Source of the DNA: a virus
DNA: 20,648 bases
Strand: one strand, 5' to 3'
Virus record (IMG/VR): IMGVR_UViG_3300007344_000338
Span: 1 to 20,648 of that record
The first letter of the stretch is position 1. Each line of letters starts with the position of its first letter. The notes under the pieces are model-generated. The model searched no databases, was not told where the DNA came from, and worked only from the letters and a program-made list of their open reading frames with translations. Shown here piece by piece: positions 4,372 through 14,190 of the stretch. Position numbers and translations under genes: made by a program.

Positions 4372-5655
4372 ATGGCAGATCAGAGGTACGGTGCAGACGG
4401 CCTGACAGACGAACAGCGCCAGTACGCTAAAGAAAACCGTGATTGGCGGGATCGTGTTTTGTGGTTGTTTGGTCAAGGTGATTATCACAAGAACCGGCAG
4501 CGCCAAGAATTTTTGGACTACAACCGAGCTGTTGCCCAGCTTCAGGCGGACCAAGCGCGGGGCGCGGCATCACGCGCTTTGGAAACGACGCGCCAGATTG
4601 ATGCGGATCAAGACTTTTTAGCGACAGCAGCTAGCCAGTACGCGGCAACAGGACAGGCTTTCTCTCGCGAAGCTGTTGACGCAGCAAAGCGCCTTGGTGT
4701 CACGCTGGATGATACTATGGTTGGCGGCGCCGTCACCAATCGAACCGTCTTTACCCCCGATCAAGAGGCAATGCTTGGTAATCTACCGTCTATGGGGAAA
4801 TATGTTAATGACATAAGGTCAGAGGGAAGTGGTCCTGCTGCCCGGTATGCCCGTTCATTGAGGGTTGCCGGTATCTCTCCTGATACTGTTGACCGATACA
4901 CACCTCCCCTTCGCGAAGGGCAGGTTTTGAATGATGACTTCACGGTGGCGACCGTTCCCAACTTTGATGAATCCGCATCTAACACGGCAGGCATGATCGC
5001 AAGCGCGGAGGCAAAGGCGCGGGCAGACCAAGATCCTATCCAGGTTATGGACAAGAGAACGGGTGAAATAGTTATCGTTCCGAAGACAGAAGCAGTGCGG
5101 AACCGGAACTATGTAGACGCCTCTACGGGCCGTGAGTTGCGGGCAGAAGACGATGCTTCGAAACTGAAGGCGGCTGCTAGCGCCCAAAGTAATGCTATGA
5201 TGAATAGCTTTATCACTAATGCCCTGAATAACATCACGCCATATACGACAGGTTTTGGGGCGGCATTGCAGTGGGTTCCAGGCACAGATGCCAAGAGGCT
5301 TGCTGGAGAACTTCAGGCCATTATCGCCAATATTGGGTTTGACCGCCTTCAGTTGATGCGTGACCAGTCTACAACAGGTGGTACGCTGGGTAATGTCAGT
5401 AACATTGAATTGAGCATGTTGCAGTCTGTGAGCGGTACGTTTGACCAGGCCAATGATCCTAACCAGCTTGCTTATAACCTGACCCGGTATGGCAAGGTGC
5501 TGAACGCCATCGTGCATGAAGGGCTGGAGGCCGCACAGCGGGCCTACATGGAGCCATATGATCCGAAACGGAGTTATGTGGAAGAAGGCAGAATGGAAAG
5601 AGAATTGATGGTTACGCCGGACACAACCAATGTAACCGTGCGCCGTGTAGAATAA
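4372..5655 (+). CDS. Putative internal virion protein with shared N-terminal module
   Basis: A 427-residue protein starting 9 bases after the previous stop, with a GTAGGG stretch upstream of the ATG. Residues about 11-48 duplicate the module of the preceding gene (DGLTDEQRQ, RDWRDRVLWLFGQGDYH, RQRQEFLD). The rest is Ala/Gln/Asp-rich, predicted mostly helical, with no enzymatic motif. Its place between the Ala-rich protein and the 677-residue Gly-rich protein fits the internal or ejection cluster of short-tailed phages. Function beyond a structural role cannot be read from the sequence. Confidence 0.65.
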   Translation: MADQRYGADGLTDEQRQYAKENRDWRDRVLWLFGQGDYHKNRQRQEFLDYNRAVAQLQADQARGAASRALETTRQIDADQDFLATAASQYAATGQAFSREAVDAAKRLGVTLDDTMVGGAVTNRTVFTPDQEAMLGNLPSMGKYVNDIRSEGSGPAARYARSLRVAGISPDTVDRYTPPLREGQVLNDDFTVATVPNFDESASNTAGMIASAEAKARADQDPIQVMDKRTGEIVIVPKTEAVRNRNYVDASTGRELRAEDDASKLKAAASAQSNAMMNSFITNALNNITPYTTGFGAALQWVPGTDAKRLAGELQAIIANIGFDRLQLMRDQSTTGGTLGNVSNIELSMLQSVSGTFDQANDPNQLAYNLTRYGKVLNAIVHEGLEAAQRAYMEPYDPKRSYVEEGRMERELMVTPDTTNVTVRRVE

Positions 5656-5668
5656 GAATGGTGATGCT

Positions 5669-7702
5669 ATGCCTAGATATGAAGTAGTCATTGACGGTTA
5701 TGAGTATGGATTTGACTATCCAGATGAAAATACGCCCGATGAAGTTCTTCGTGGGAGAGCGGAAGAAATGGCTCGCCGTTACAGAGCGGCGCAGCAAGGC
5801 GACGACGAATATCAGAGCATTTATGATCGCCAAAAGAAGGCCCATAGCGGGGTGCAAGGAGCTTTGGCTCAAATGGGGCACGGCTCTTTGCTGGGGTACA
5901 GTGACGAAATAAACGCGGCCTTGGCTACGCTGATTTCTGGCCCGGAAGGGTCATTCACCGACTTGATTACGGGCGAAGGCAGCGACTATTACGACAAGCG
6001 GCTGGACATTAACCGCCGTGTTCTCAATGAGTACCGGGATAAAAACCCTGTTCTTGCACCTGTCATGGAAGGTAGCGGCGGGGTTCTGACTGGCTTGGTT
6101 GCTGGTCGCGCTGGGTTGGGCGGCACGGGTAGCACGCTGGGGCAAACAGCAAAGATTGGCGCAACAGAGGGCGCAATTGCGGGATTTGGTGAAGGGGAGG
6201 GCGGTTTTGTCAATCGCGCCTTTACAGGTGGCGTCGGGGCCACCCTTGGCGGCGTTGCGCCTTATCTTCTAGCCGCTGGTCGTCCTGCGGCGCAGTCTGT
6301 TGCGCGGAACGTGGGTAGATTTTTGGACCCAGGCATCCAGAAGTTGAACAAAGCGCAACGCCTGTTGATGGAAGACTTGCGGCTTGACGCCTTCAATCCG
6401 AACAAGCTGCGTCGTGTGCCGGGCAAACAGCAGACGGTAGCGGATATAGGGGGAGCTAACACGCTGGCAGAAATGCAGGCAGCGGCGGCTATTCCTGGAA
6501 ACCCGATGCTGGATGAAACGGTGGATTTCATGTCTGCCCGTCGCGCCAACCAGTACGGGCGAATTACTGATGACGCCGTTAGTTTGACGGGCCAGTCGCC
6601 CATTAACCGCATACAGGCTGAAGACGAAATTCTGGATGCGGCACGCAGGGAGGCAGACGATCTTTATCAGGCTGCATATGCTAATCCTGCGCAGATTGGT
6701 GATCTTGATACCTTGCGGCTGCTAGACAGTGACATTGTTAAAGAGGCTTACGATGATGCTTTGCGTCTGTATGACGCAGAGCGTTCGGCTGGAATGTTGA
6801 TTAACAAGGATTTGCCCCCGCTGGACAATATCTTTGTTAAAAATGCAAAAACAGGGCAGGTTCGTTTGGTGCGCTCCCCAAATATGCAGACCCTTGATTA
6901 CATCCAGCGTGCTTTGGACGATAAGGTGACGCAGCTTTACAAAGACGGTAAAGGTGGCCTAGCCGGTATCGCCAAAGAAACGCGCCGTAAGCTGATTTCT
7001 GCAATGGAGAAAATTTCCCCTGAATACGAACAGGCTCGACAGGTTTGGCGCGGCAAGTCAGAGGGGCAAGACGCGCTGAAAGCTGGCAAGAAGTTCTGGA
7101 CGGCTTCTGAAAATGATGTTGCTAATGCCATGAAAGACATGTCTGCAACAGAACAGGCGCTTTACCGCCAGAGTGCAATGGAAAGCATTCAGGACAATGT
7201 TATGCGCCCGTCTGACACAATCAATGTGGTAGGTCGCCTGAATAATGAAACCATGCGCCGCAAGCTGGCCAAGATTTCTACCAATCCAGAGGCCGTGGAA
7301 AACTACCTTCAACGCGCAGACATAGAAAAAAGCATGGCCCGTACCGAGGACGCCATTCTTACCGGGTCGCGGACAAAGAACATGGCGGCAAAGATGAAGG
7401 CCATTGAAGAAAACCCTAGCCTTATTTCAAGGGCTGTTAGCAAATTCCGCACACCGGCCACCGCCTTCGACACGCTCACAGAAGCCATGACTTCGGCGGG
7501 CCAGCGTGACGCTGCGGGGACGACAGCGGGTGAGCTATTGCAGCTTGGTGCTACGGAATTAAATGAAAATCAGCAAAAACTTATTGCTGATTTGTTCAAG
7601 TCTTACATGCTGGAGCGTGAAGTTGATCGGATCGGGATGGCTGGCGCCCGTTCGGCTTCGTCTTTCGCCAACCGCATGACACCATATGTCATTTCAAATT
7701 AA
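5669..7702 (+). CDS. Large internal virion / DNA-ejection-like protein
   Basis: A 677-residue protein with ATG 5669 and only a weak ribosome site. The N-terminal 40 residues are acidic and aromatic with an amphipathic helix (PDEVLRGRAEEMARRYR). Residues about 113-207 form a Gly/Ala-rich low-polarity stretch (such as GVLTGLVAGRAGLGG and GGVGATLGGVAPYLLAAG) that could insert into or cross a membrane. The remainder is long, charged and helical, with VADIGGANTLAEMQAA near residue 260, a pattern I associate with large podovirus ejection proteins. It is the last gene of the virion block; the next gene begins about 56 bases later. Membrane penetration during DNA entry is inference from composition. 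Confidence 0.6.
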   Translation: MPRYEVVIDGYEYGFDYPDENTPDEVLRGRAEEMARRYRAAQQGDDEYQSIYDRQKKAHSGVQGALAQMGHGSLLGYSDEINAALATLISGPEGSFTDLITGEGSDYYDKRLDINRRVLNEYRDKNPVLAPVMEGSGGVLTGLVAGRAGLGGTGSTLGQTAKIGATEGAIAGFGEGEGGFVNRAFTGGVGATLGGVAPYLLAAGRPAAQSVARNVGRFLDPGIQKLNKAQRLLMEDLRLDAFNPNKLRRVPGKQQTVADIGGANTLAEMQAAAAIPGNPMLDETVDFMSARRANQYGRITDDAVSLTGQSPINRIQAEDEILDAARREADDLYQAAYANPAQIGDLDTLRLLDSDIVKEAYDDALRLYDAERSAGMLINKDLPPLDNIFVKNAKTGQVRLVRSPNMQTLDYIQRALDDKVTQLYKDGKGGLAGIAKETRRKLISAMEKISPEYEQARQVWRGKSEGQDALKAGKKFWTASENDVANAMKDMSATEQALYRQSAMESIQDNVMRPSDTINVVGRLNNETMRRKLAKISTNPEAVENYLQRADIEKSMARTEDAILTGSRTKNMAAKMKAIEENPSLISRAVSKFRTPATAFDTLTEAMTSAGQRDAAGTTAGELLQLGATELNENQQKLIADLFKSYMLEREVDRIGMAGARSASSFANRMTPYVISN

Positions 7703-11809: not shown

Positions 11810-12004
11810 TCATGTCCATTGTTTTTTGTCTATGTTGTCAGTAATGACCTGGCGCACTGCGCTGGGCGTTGTCAGGGCTGGATAATGTTCGCACAAGGCG
11901 TCGATCAGGTCAGCCGTCAAATATACTGAAACCTTCTTCCCCGCCTGTTTCCCCTTTGGCTTGCGGCCCGCGCCTTGGCGATAGCCGCCACGGTTTTCAG
12001 TCAT
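11810..12004 (-). CDS. RHH-like DNA-binding protein (intact copy)
   Basis: A 64-residue protein with a basic Gly-rich start (GGYRQGAGRKPKGKQAGKK), much like an AT-hook, followed by a strand-helix-helix pattern (VSVYLTADLIDALCEHY, then SAVRQVITDNI) typical of ribbon-helix-helix proteins. Such proteins bind DNA as dimers and often repress their own operon. AAAGG lies about 8 bases before ATG 12004; the gene starts 8 bases inside the end of the upstream methyltransferase gene. A second, broken copy is found at 12982-13116, in the same position relative to the second methyltransferase, because the region is tandemly duplicated. Confidence 0.6.
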   Translation of the reverse strand: MTENRGGYRQGAGRKPKGKQAGKKVSVYLTADLIDALCEHYPALTTPSAVRQVITDNIDKKQWT

Positions 12005-12926
12005 TGTATTGCCTTTCTGCTTCTAATATAGCGTTGCCGATCATCTCCGGTATCTGCGGGACAACGGCATTGCCTAGCGCCTTGAGACGTTTTGCGCGGT
12101 TTTTTGTGATCGTGGTAGTGCGGGCTATTCCGTATTCCCAAGTTCCGTCCAGCCAGGCGGAAACCCCATGAGGGGTTCGACCCATTCCGGGTTCAGGTTT
12201 CCTGATCCTTCCAGCGCCTGCATTTTGTGGTCCAGCCGGTCGTTCGTTCTGTCCCTTCCGTTCTTGCGTGTCAGGGCTGCTTCGCTCGACCCCTTGTACA
12301 TGGTCGCCGTTGGTGTCGGATACATCTTCGGCCATGTTTTCGGGTTGTTCACTTGGGCCGGTAGAGAAGAAGCGACATTCTCCGACCTGTCCCCCATCCT
12401 CTTTGTAAATGTCGAGTTGCTCTCGCCCCGCCCCGTGTCGCTGGCTTTGGGCGTGAGCCACAATCCAGAGCCTGTCGCGTCGGTGCGAGGCACCGAGGGC
12501 GCAAGCTGGAATAAGGAACGTCCTGCAGGCGTAGTCTTCACTTTCCAAGTCAGAAAGCACAGCGTCGAGGCCCATGCTGATGTGCCCAGCAACATTTTCG
12601 CCAATGACCCAAGCGGGCCGGTGTTCTTTGATGCAAGCAAACATCGATGGCCAGAGGTGGCGGTCATCGTCCGCGCCTTTTCGCTGCCCGGCTGTAGAGA
12701 AAGGCTGGCAGGGGTATCCCCCTGAAATAACGTCAACTGGTCCGTCATGAGTTAAGTTCCTTACATCTTCATAAATGGGTACATCGGGCCAATGCTTCCG
12801 CAGCACTTGCTGGCAGAACGGCTCTATCTCGCAGAAGCCTACAGTCTCGAACCCGCCCGTTCGTTCAAGGCCCAGTGAGAACCCGCCGATGCCGCTGAAA
12901 AGATCAAGAACCTTTAGTTTTTTCAT
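11997..12926 (-). CDS. DNA (cytosine-5)-methyltransferase, copy 1
   Basis: A 309-residue enzyme that would transfer a methyl group from S-adenosylmethionine to cytosine C5 at a specific site. Motifs in order: I, DLFSGIGGFSLGL (8-20); IV, GGYPCQPFSTAGQRKG with catalytic C73; VI, GENV (109-112); VIII, HRRDRLW (148-154); X, LGNAVVPQ (about 284-291). The region between VIII and X, where the target-recognition domain lies, is polar and low in complexity here. A second ORF (12125-12748) occupies most of the gene in the +1 frame. It is 30 residues longer than copy 2. It likely protects phage DNA from host restriction or alters host expression; that role is inferred. The start ATG 12926 overlaps the stop of a truncated upstream gene (TAATG). 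Confidence 0.9.
   Translation of the reverse strand: MKKLKVLDLFSGIGGFSLGLERTGGFETVGFCEIEPFCQQVLRKHWPDVPIYEDVRNLTHDGPVDVISGGYPCQPFSTAGQRKGADDDRHLWPSMFACIKEHRPAWVIGENVAGHISMGLDAVLSDLESEDYACRTFLIPACALGASHRRDRLWIVAHAQSQRHGAGREQLDIYKEDGGQVGECRFFSTGPSEQPENMAEDVSDTNGDHVQGVERSSPDTQERKGQNERPAGPQNAGAGRIRKPEPGMGRTPHGVSAWLDGTWEYGIARTTTITKNRAKRLKALGNAVVPQIPEMIGNAILEAERQYND
12125..12748 (-). CDS. Overprinted ORF in the +1 frame of methyltransferase copy 1
   Basis: A 207-residue ORF wholly inside the methyltransferase gene. A Shine-Dalgarno AAGGAA lies 8 bases before ATG 12748. It opens with MTDQLTLF, continues with GSEKAR.MTATSG, MLLGTSAWAS and LTWKVK.TPAG, then has LTPKASD and PTPTA motifs, and ends in LNPEWVEPLMGFPPGWTEL. 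The same order of motifs is found in the matching ORF of copy 2. From memory this pattern is a family met in phage genomes alongside cytosine methyltransferases; the end resembles the motif IX region of some single-frame C5 enzymes (LSP.FVEWMMG.P.GW). It may be a partner or target-recognition subunit. Expression is not proven. Confidence 0.7.
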   Translation of the reverse strand: MTDQLTLFQGDTPASLSLQPGSEKARTMTATSGHRCLLASKNTGPLGSLAKMLLGTSAWASTLCFLTWKVKTTPAGRSLFQLAPSVPRTDATGSGLWLTPKASDTGRGESNSTFTKRMGDRSENVASSLPAQVNNPKTWPKMYPTPTATMYKGSSEAALTRKNGRDRTNDRLDHKMQALEGSGNLNPEWVEPLMGFPPGWTELGNTE

Positions 12927-13029
12927 TACCCTAACCCCAGCGCAGCCGCAACCTTGTCTTCGTTCATAACGTCATTGCGGCTCATGTAGACGGCGGGTCC
13001 GTCAAGTTCGACCTTGAAGCCTTCACCGT
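12926..13029 (-). pseudogene. 3' remnant of the 13948-14190 gene
   Basis: On the leftward strand this stretch encodes the last about 35 residues of the small gene found whole at 13948-14190 (FKVELDGPAVYMSRNDV, then MNEDKVA and ALGLG). Its upstream part has been replaced at the CCGT junction by the start of the RHH-like gene in a different frame, and no start codon with a ribosome site remains. Its TAA still overlaps the ATG of methyltransferase copy 1, so the coupling point survives though the gene does not. Confidence 0.75.
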
Positions 13030-13116
13030 CAAATATACTGAAACCTTCTTGCCCGCCTGTTTCCCCTTTGGCTTGCGGCCCGCGCCTTGGCGATAGCCGC
13101 CGCGTTTTTCAGTCAT
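12982..13116 (-). pseudogene. Truncated second copy of the RHH-like gene with a chimeric tail
   Basis: A 44-residue frame from ATG 13116. The first 30 residues match the intact RHH-like protein (MTEKRGGYRQGAGRKPK, then KKVSVYLT), keeping the basic AT-hook-like part and the first beta strand. The remaining 14 residues (VKASRSNLTDPPST) come from an out-of-frame reading of the adjoining gene remnant. The helices needed for a full fold are lost. The ATG and its position 8 bases inside the end of methyltransferase copy 2 are unchanged, so a short basic peptide might still be made. Confidence 0.75.
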
Positions 13117-13948
13117 TGTATTGCCTTTCTGCTTCTAGTATCGCATGGCCTATCATTTTGGGTATTTGTGGCACTACAGCATTTCCGAGCGCCTTCAATC
13201 TATTTTTGTCCAGTTTACGGGAAACCCCATCATTTCTTCCACGAACAGCGGGGACAGTGGGCCATCCCAATGCATTGACAAGTTGATCTGCTTCCCCTTC
13301 TCCAGTCGCCTTCTGATTGCTGGGTTCTTCGGCCCACCCCTGTCCCGATTGTCGGATGCTGTTGGTGTCGGCATGAACGCGCTTGCTATTGAGCGCATTA
13401 TCCTTCCCCCCTTGTCCAGATTGGCTAGGCTTTTCCAATTGACGTTGTAATCGTGATGCTCCGATGCCGCTGGTGTGGGCAACAATCCAGAGCCTGTCGC
13501 GTCGGTGCGAGGCACCGAGGGCGCAAGCTGGAATAATGAATGCCCGGCAGGCGTAGCCTTCACTTTCCAGGTCAGATAGCACATCGTCGAGGCCCATGCT
13601 GATGTGCCCAGCAACATTCTCTCCAATGACCCAAGATGGCTTGTGTTTTTTGATGCAATCAAACATCGCTGGCCAGAGGTGGCGGTCATCTGCCGCGCCT
13701 TTTCGCTGCCCGGCTGTAGAAAACGGCTGGCAAGGGTATCCTCCGGTAATAACGTCAACTGGTCCTTCATGGTGTAACTCCCTAACATCTTCGTAAATGG
13801 GTACATCAGGCCAATGCTTACGCAACACCTGTTGACAGAACGGCTCTATCTCGCAAAAGCCGACAGTCTCAAAGCCGCCTGTGCGCTCTAGTCCCAGCGA
13901 AAAGCCGCCGATGCCAGAGAACAGGTCAAGCACTTTCAGTTTTTCCAT
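13109..13948 (-). CDS. DNA (cytosine-5)-methyltransferase, copy 2
   Basis: A 279-residue C5-cytosine methyltransferase. I start it at ATG 13948, which overlaps the upstream stop (TGATG); a GTG one codon earlier is possible. The motifs match copy 1: DLFSGIGGFSLGL, GGYPCQPFSTAGQRKG with catalytic C73, GENV, HRRDRLW and LGNAVVPQ. The first about 155 residues and last about 30 are close to copy 1; the segment between motifs VIII and X is different and about 30 residues shorter, so its target sequence may differ. A +1-frame ORF (13195-13770) overlaps it as in copy 1. The two enzymes together could modify two different sites on phage DNA. Confidence 0.9.
   Translation of the reverse strand: MEKLKVLDLFSGIGGFSLGLERTGGFETVGFCEIEPFCQQVLRKHWPDVPIYEDVRELHHEGPVDVITGGYPCQPFSTAGQRKGAADDRHLWPAMFDCIKKHKPSWVIGENVAGHISMGLDDVLSDLESEGYACRAFIIPACALGASHRRDRLWIVAHTSGIGASRLQRQLEKPSQSGQGGKDNALNSKRVHADTNSIRQSGQGWAEEPSNQKATGEGEADQLVNALGWPTVPAVRGRNDGVSRKLDKNRLKALGNAVVPQIPKMIGHAILEAERQYND
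13195..13770 (-). CDS. Overprinted ORF in the +1 frame of methyltransferase copy 2
   Basis: A 191-residue ORF from ATG 13770, preceded 8 bases upstream by AGGGAG; an earlier in-frame start exists but lacks this site. It starts MKDQLTLL, keeps GSEKARQMTATSG, MLLGTSAWAS and LTWKVKATPAG, has LLPTPAASE and MPTPTASD, and ends PLSPLFVEEMMGFPVNWTKI. The start lies at the same place relative to the methyltransferase start (178 bases) as in copy 1, and the motifs agree though the spacers differ. Retention of start, ribosome site, open frame and motifs in both copies argues that this protein is made. Confidence 0.7.
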   Translation of the reverse strand: MKDQLTLLPEDTLASRFLQPGSEKARQMTATSGQRCLIASKNTSHLGSLERMLLGTSAWASTMCYLTWKVKATPAGHSLFQLAPSVPRTDATGSGLLPTPAASEHHDYNVNWKSLANLDKGGRIMRSIASAFMPTPTASDNRDRGGPKNPAIRRRLEKGKQINLSMHWDGPLSPLFVEEMMGFPVNWTKID

Positions 13949-14190
13949 CACCCTAAACCCAACGCTTCCGCAACCTTGTCTTCATTCATAACGTCATCGC
14001 GGCTCATGTAGACGGCAGGGCCATCCAATACGGCCTTAAAGCCTTCGCCGTGGGCACGCTGCGCGTACCATTGGCCATGGTCGTTGCAGTTTATGTATGC
14101 GACCAGGTTCGACATTGAGCCGGTGTGACCTGCGTACATATGATACTGATTTCGGTAGTTGTTCAGAATGATGTGATTTGTGGTGGTCAT
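13948..14190 (-). CDS. Small hypothetical protein at the head of the leftward operon
   Basis: An 80-residue protein, first gene left of the operator, with a perfect AAGGAG ribosome site 7 bases before ATG 14190. It is rich in Asn, His and Tyr (NNYRNQYHMYAGHTG, then CNDHGQWYAQRAHGEG) and ends YMSRDDVMNEDKVAEALGLG. No known domain. Its stop overlaps the start of methyltransferase copy 2. A truncated copy of its 3' end sits before methyltransferase copy 1. As promoter-proximal gene with the best ribosome site, it should be made in quantity early. Confidence 0.6.
   Translation of the reverse strand: MTTTNHIILNNYRNQYHMYAGHTGSMSNLVAYINCNDHGQWYAQRAHGEGFKAVLDGPAVYMSRDDVMNEDKVAEALGLG

Follow-up and report, generated by a model that had tools for sequence, protein, structure and literature searches.

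Two genes on one strand of a viral DNA record appear to encode C5-cytosine methyltransferases, and each contains a second long open reading frame (ORF) in its +1 frame. Are these second frames genes and, if so, what do their products contribute to the enzyme? The window analyzed here is the entire IMG/VR virus record of 20,648 bases. The methyltransferase frames are called alpha1 and alpha2, and the +1 frames are called beta1 and beta2. Our preferred reading, to which we assign a probability of roughly 0.8, is that each locus encodes a split C5 methyltransferase in which alpha provides catalysis (motifs I-VIII and X) and beta provides target recognition and motif IX.

Alpha and beta genes in the window

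The alpha1 gene (11997..12926, minus strand; 309 aa) is assigned as the catalytic subunit of a C5-cytosine methyltransferase on the basis of matches to PF00145 and phrog_363, an AlphaFold model and a structural match to M.HhaI. Motifs I-VIII are located at residues ~4-160 and motif X (GNAVVP) at about residues 285-290, and the PF00145 match (E 1.8e-39) is confined to residues 4-165. The alpha2 gene (13109..13951, minus strand; 280 aa), the second such catalytic subunit, matches PF00145 with an E value of 5.4e-40 and phrog_363 with an E value of 1.7e-83. PF00145 coverage is limited to the first 165-190 residues of the two proteins. Alpha carries PCQ, ENV, RRDR and GNAVVP, and motif IX was not seen in it.

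The first-pass annotation had reported a second long +1-frame ORF in both methyltransferase genes, and its coordinates, frames and lengths check: beta1 (12125..12748, minus strand) encodes 207 aa and beta2 (13195..13770, minus strand) 191 aa. The sequence motifs that it listed as common to the two second-frame products were correct when rechecked. It placed the beta start 178 nucleotides after the methyltransferase start, which is true for the alpha1 start and for the ATG of alpha2 (181 from an upstream GTG). It also placed Shine-Dalgarno (SD) sites 8 bases upstream. This spacing holds for AAGGAA before the beta1 ATG (upstream region 12749..12768, minus strand, inside alpha1) but not for AGGGAG, which is 7 nucleotides before the beta2 ATG (13771..13790, minus strand, inside alpha2).

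A protein search with the +1-frame products, proposed at the same time, matched both to the phage family phrog_1008 (E 5e-31 for beta1 and 2.7e-29 for beta2). The assignment of beta1 is further based on tblastn and codon statistics. PHROGs labels the alpha and beta families alike, as "DNA methyltransferase". Beta had no matches in Pfam or NCBIfam, and a sequence search of the PDB with beta likewise found none. In beta1, an N-terminal part (residues 1-92) lies over alpha motifs IV-VIII and is followed by a variable middle that resembles a target-recognition domain (TRD) and by the motif-IX-like C-terminal sequence LNPEWVEPLMGFPPGW. Beta2 consists of an N-terminal part, a middle of a different class from that of beta1, and the C-terminal sequence LSPLFVEEMMGFPVNW.

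Two further long ORFs in the window are antisense to other genes. One (12168-12725, plus strand, 185 aa) lies opposite beta1/alpha1, and the other (4855-5691, minus strand, 278 aa) lies opposite a 427-aa gene at 4372-5655. Both are likely to be codon-composition shadows.

Length of the +1 frame compared with chance

The alpha protein was held fixed while its synonymous codons were shuffled 10,000 times, and the length of the +1 ORF was compared. A +1 ORF as long as that observed arose in 20 of 10,000 shuffles of alpha1 and in 3 of 10,000 shuffles of alpha2. The +2 frame of both genes is ordinary in the same test. When the window pair and its homologues were taken together, no shuffle matched the observed +1 length in 48 of 92 distinct genes, and a +2 ORF at p<0.01 was found in none of the 92.

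Selection in two frames

The third codon positions of alpha1 and alpha2 differ in 24 of 52 codons before beta and in 12 of 26 after its end (46% outside the overlap), but in 11 of 79 (14%) over the first part of the overlap (Fisher p 1e-5). Among 22 disjoint pairs of homologues, with each sequence used once, alpha wobble divergence was lower inside the overlap in all 22 (mean 0.24 versus 0.45; Wilcoxon p 5e-7). For the more distant pairs, wobble positions outside the overlap have nearly saturated, so this contrast is conservative.

The first-pass annotation had counted by hand about 26 substitutions in the N-terminal overlap, with about 11 replacements in the methyltransferase frame and 18 in the second. 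This count was about right: there are 25 differences in 79 gap-free codons, with 12 replacements in alpha and 18.5 in beta. A codon-level test over many pairs, which it had suggested, was conducted with a site count for overlapping genes on 30 disjoint pairs. The windows for this count were picked by beta similarity, which biases it in favor of beta; with that bias, dNN/dNS for beta is 0.53 (0.45-0.61) for residues 1-92, and the values for the middle and the end are 0.23 and 0.26. The corresponding dNN/dSN values for alpha are 0.31 in the first part of the overlap, 0.89 (0.71-1.11) in the middle and 0.80 (0.54-1.18) at the end, and the latter two are indistinguishable from no constraint.

The flip in constraint is reproduced when a frame-neutral nucleotide filter is used. 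Under this filter, divergence at alpha codon position 3 versus position 1 is 0.41 versus 0.13 before beta, 0.22 versus 0.16 in the first half of the overlap, 0.17 versus 0.31 in the second half, and again 0.41 versus 0.13 after beta. Thus, alpha and beta are both under constraint over motifs IV-VIII, and it is stronger on alpha. Between motifs VIII and X constraint is detected on beta only, and the second half of the overlap is mainly beta's. The first-pass claim of shared constraint, stronger on the methyltransferase, is confirmed by these statistics for the first half; the handover to beta alone in the later segment had been missed. Together, the sequence statistics show that the alpha and beta frames are both protein-coding and that beta is a real gene.

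Translation start of beta

Most beta starts lie 150-215 nucleotides downstream of the alpha start. SD matches of four bases are present at 41 of 67 beta starts, where synonymous resampling of alpha predicts 21.0 (p 5e-7), and matches of five bases at 17, where it predicts 5.3. This excess argues for independent internal initiation.

Conservation and annotation of the pair

A scan that used alpha peptides only yielded 80 viral loci. A beta homologue is present at all 80, always in the +1 frame of alpha; some of the scan peptides lie inside the overlap, which constrains the DNA there but not the +1 reading as such. Homologues whose +1 frame is broken by stops at the rate expected by chance, which the first-pass annotation had named as evidence against its proposal, were looked for and not found. 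A beta homologue in the +1 frame is also present at bacterial loci, and the pair is rare in Bacteroidota genomes (3 of 395). Searches by tblastn with beta gave matches in 121 phage records. In all 14 phage and plasmid records examined, which include phages of Paenibacillus, Lacticaseibacillus, Salmonella, Acinetobacter, Escherichia, Xanthomonas, Vibrio, Pseudomonas and Erwinia, these matches lie inside a methyltransferase-like gene. The beta HMM matched no frame of 22 single-chain C5 methyltransferase loci tested as a control, so methyltransferase motifs do not by themselves give rise to the second frame.

In some records both genes were entered by the depositors, as in Paenibacillus phage Lily (gp62/63, "g62 internal gene"), and overlapping genes were also deposited for E. 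coli phage K1ind2 (gp32/33) and Xanthomonas phage PhiXhv-18. RefSeq lists alpha only, with beta missing, at all six E. coli prophage loci (L153-L158), each of which is matched by the beta profile (E 5e-39 to 2e-52). At one of these six, Ec1117, the alpha frame is open but is entered in RefSeq as two pseudogene fragments. The two-in-one arrangement is the rule in a large phage family and is half-missed by standard bacterial annotation.

A few loci depart from intact frames; most of the loci are on metagenomic contigs, in which errors of sequencing can look like decay. At L150 (1346-2412, from a Bacteroidota genome) beta has two stops and alpha is frameshifted. L096 (1985-2993) has one stop in alpha and an intact beta. 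An apparent indel at L010 (2084-2975) swaps the frames after mid-gene. A natural single-chain fusion of alpha and beta was sought among the fetched loci, and the sole ORF matching both, that of L010, is best read as the result of this indel. A sequence resembling the C-terminal part of beta, overlapped by a fragment of alpha, is also found at L113 (1-381), on a contig binned as Heimdallarchaeota that could be of phage origin or mis-binned.

Structure and motif IX

The AlphaFold model of alpha1 is confident for residues 1-163 and 272-309, and residues 164-271 are predicted to be disordered. The ordered parts superimpose on M.HhaI with a Z score of 23.6 (205 residues aligned, rmsd 3.1). The stretch predicted to be disordered corresponds to the part of a single-chain enzyme that holds the TRD and motif IX, and it coincides with constrained beta code.

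Beta modeled alone is poorly predicted (pTM 0.27), as might be expected for a subunit without its partner. A search of the PDB with this model gave weak matches only, none of them informative, and no match to the small domain of C5 methyltransferases. Given the low confidence and the absence of an informative match, no fold is claimed for beta, and its TRD is placed by position and constraint rather than by structure. When beta was aligned with single-chain C5 enzymes by hhalign, the sole match was of residues 185-202 (LNPEWVEPLMGFPPGWTE) to motif IX, a weak one (P 0.056). The end of beta has the pattern LNPxWVExLMGFPxGW and falls in the place expected for motif IX.

Tandem copies with different middle parts

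The two alpha/beta units share two repeats. D1 (12450..12749, minus strand; 300 nucleotides, 90% identical to 13472-13771) covers the dual-coded first half of both overlaps. D2 (11914..12083, minus strand; 170 nucleotides, 89% identical to 13026-13195) covers the alpha C-terminus with motif X and the downstream flank. Most sequence between D1 and D2 aligns poorly across the copies. The N-terminal parts of beta1 and beta2 are 81% identical, and their middle (TRD) parts do not match each other at an E value of 1e-3. The units with their flanks are a tandem duplication in which the middle, target-recognition part of one copy has been replaced. Between the units, at ~12930-13030, is an apparent truncated copy of the 3' end of an 80-aa ORF (13948-14190).

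The middle of beta1 matches those of loci L005, L034 and L018 (an Acinetobacter phage), among others, and the middle of beta2 matches those of L087, L058, L090 and L023 (a Paenibacillus plasmid). Such beta-frame modules, recurring in distant backgrounds, resemble target-recognition modules that may differ in specificity.

Alternative explanations

It is unlikely that the TRD resides in alpha and that the contribution of beta is limited to motif IX and contacts with alpha. This location of the TRD is stated for M.EcoHK31I in the description given in PMC3404938. However, purifying selection on the phage alpha was not detectable between motifs VIII and X in the 30 independent pairs, this stretch is predicted to be disordered, and two classes of beta-frame module recur in phages that are distant from one another.

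A real beta that acts outside the enzyme, as a regulator, an inhibitor or an unrelated overprinted phage protein, seems quite unlikely. In favor of it, single-chain C5 enzymes have nothing that corresponds to residues 1-92 of beta, and no fold match is informative, but beta was never seen without alpha among the loci examined. Moreover, alpha has neither an ordered domain nor detectable constraint between motifs VIII and X, the end of beta fits motif IX by position and pattern, and at the sole bacterial locus found where stops interrupt beta, alpha is frameshifted as well. The first-pass annotation had offered a regulatory subunit as an alternative, which found no support.

A programmed +1 frameshift could join the alpha N-terminus to the beta C-terminus to form a single-chain enzyme, for which the beta start would be irrelevant. 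The reading from alpha to beta near motif VIII is indeed continuous in many loci (RRDRLW-LWPTPxASD). However, beta residues 1-92, which are upstream of the likely frameshift points, are under amino-acid constraint, as reflected in the dNN/dNS value of 0.53 and in the 22 of 22 pairs; this makes it less likely that the main product is a frameshift fusion. The position of the beta start and its SD sequence are also conserved beyond expectation, and a frameshift product would lose motif X. A fusion of this kind was rejected as the main explanation, given a constrained N-terminal beta with its own start, and we consider it very improbable.

That the +1 ORF is a non-coding shadow is scarcely credible: conserved alpha motifs do constrain the +1 frame in part, and shuffled window genes still have open +1 stretches averaging 78-97 codons, but single-chain enzymes with the same motifs have no beta in any frame, the suppression of alpha wobble is confined to the overlap and the second half of the overlap shows beta codon periodicity, so the single-chain control and the wobble test, both sequence evidence, reject it.

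Proposed division of labor

The reading of each locus as a split C5 methyltransferase can be stated as a mechanism. Alpha would supply the SAM-binding and catalytic core (motifs I-VIII, with PCQ, ENV and RxR) and motif X. Beta would be initiated independently at its own ribosome-binding site inside alpha and would contribute the target-recognition region and motif IX. The two proteins presumably assemble into one enzyme, with roles suggested by homology and by the established biology of C5 methyltransferases, and beta presumably sets its specificity. The two tandem copies may methylate different sites, and the most likely role of the methylation is to shield the phage genome from host restriction. 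An overprinted partner, perhaps a target-recognition subunit, had been proposed in the first-pass annotation; the conservation at 80 of 80 loci, the codon statistics for overlapping genes, the disordered alpha stretch and the motif-IX-like end of beta support this proposal.

We consider it fairly probable that specificity is coded within the catalytic gene in a hidden frame and that TRD modules are exchanged and selected in that frame. The alpha frame would then merely stay open to provide a disordered link to motif X, and coding would run as a relay, first in both frames and then in beta alone.

Comparison with known systems

In the C5 methyltransferase M.EcoHK31I, the gene for the larger polypeptide contains that for the smaller one in an alternative frame. 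Similarly, beta is nested in the +1 frame of alpha in the window and at all 80 viral loci. This biochemically studied precedent was missed by the first-pass annotation.

According to the account in PMC3404938, which cites Lee, Kam and Shaw (1995, NAR 23:103), M.EcoHK31I (YGGCCR) is composed of two polypeptides, of which the larger contains motifs I-VIII and X and the smaller contains motif IX. Both proteins are required in vitro, according to the title of the 1995 paper as cited there, and the predicted TRD is assigned to the larger subunit. Its sequence accession, X82231, is mentioned in PMC6174562. Alpha, like the larger polypeptide in this published description, has motifs I-VIII and X. M.EcoHK31I itself was not located in E. 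coli genomes, where the searches reached prophage relatives, none identified as EcoHK31I. M.EcoHK31I is part of a restriction-modification system, whereas no restriction gene was recognized beside the phage copies. The phage also differs in having two tandem pairs with different middle regions. Finally, the published TRD is in the larger subunit, whereas the phage family points to the smaller, because alpha between motifs VIII and X is without detectable constraint or order.

M.AquI (CYCGRG) is also split into two polypeptides, and its smaller subunit carries motifs IX and X and the distal variable region, as described in PMC3404938; here, in contrast, alpha holds motif X (GNAVVP). M.HhaI and other single-chain PF00145 enzymes share the predicted fold of the alpha core, but they have the TRD and motif IX in frame, and none of the 22 tested has a beta ORF in any frame. 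A single-chain enzyme would carry motifs I-X in one frame with an ordered small domain, whereas in alpha1 the Pfam match stops at residue 165 and residues 164-271 are predicted to be disordered. The same alpha/beta arrangement is found in Lily gp62/63, K1ind2 gp32/33 and PhiXhv-18, which were deposited as annotation with no mechanism stated there.

By architecture, the window genes fit the M.EcoHK31I type, which has been known since 1995. What is new is the breadth and strict dual coding of the family, its omission from annotation and the evidence for target recognition in beta. The pair is a well-supported case, in DNA phages, of two genes that overlap over a long stretch of the same strand and clearly divide the labor. 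Because the subunit that would decide specificity is in a frame omitted by RefSeq at all six E. coli loci examined, prediction of specificity from the annotated protein alone cannot work for many phage and prophage C5 methyltransferases. The location of the TRD in enzymes of the M.EcoHK31I type, a long-standing assignment, now becomes directly testable.
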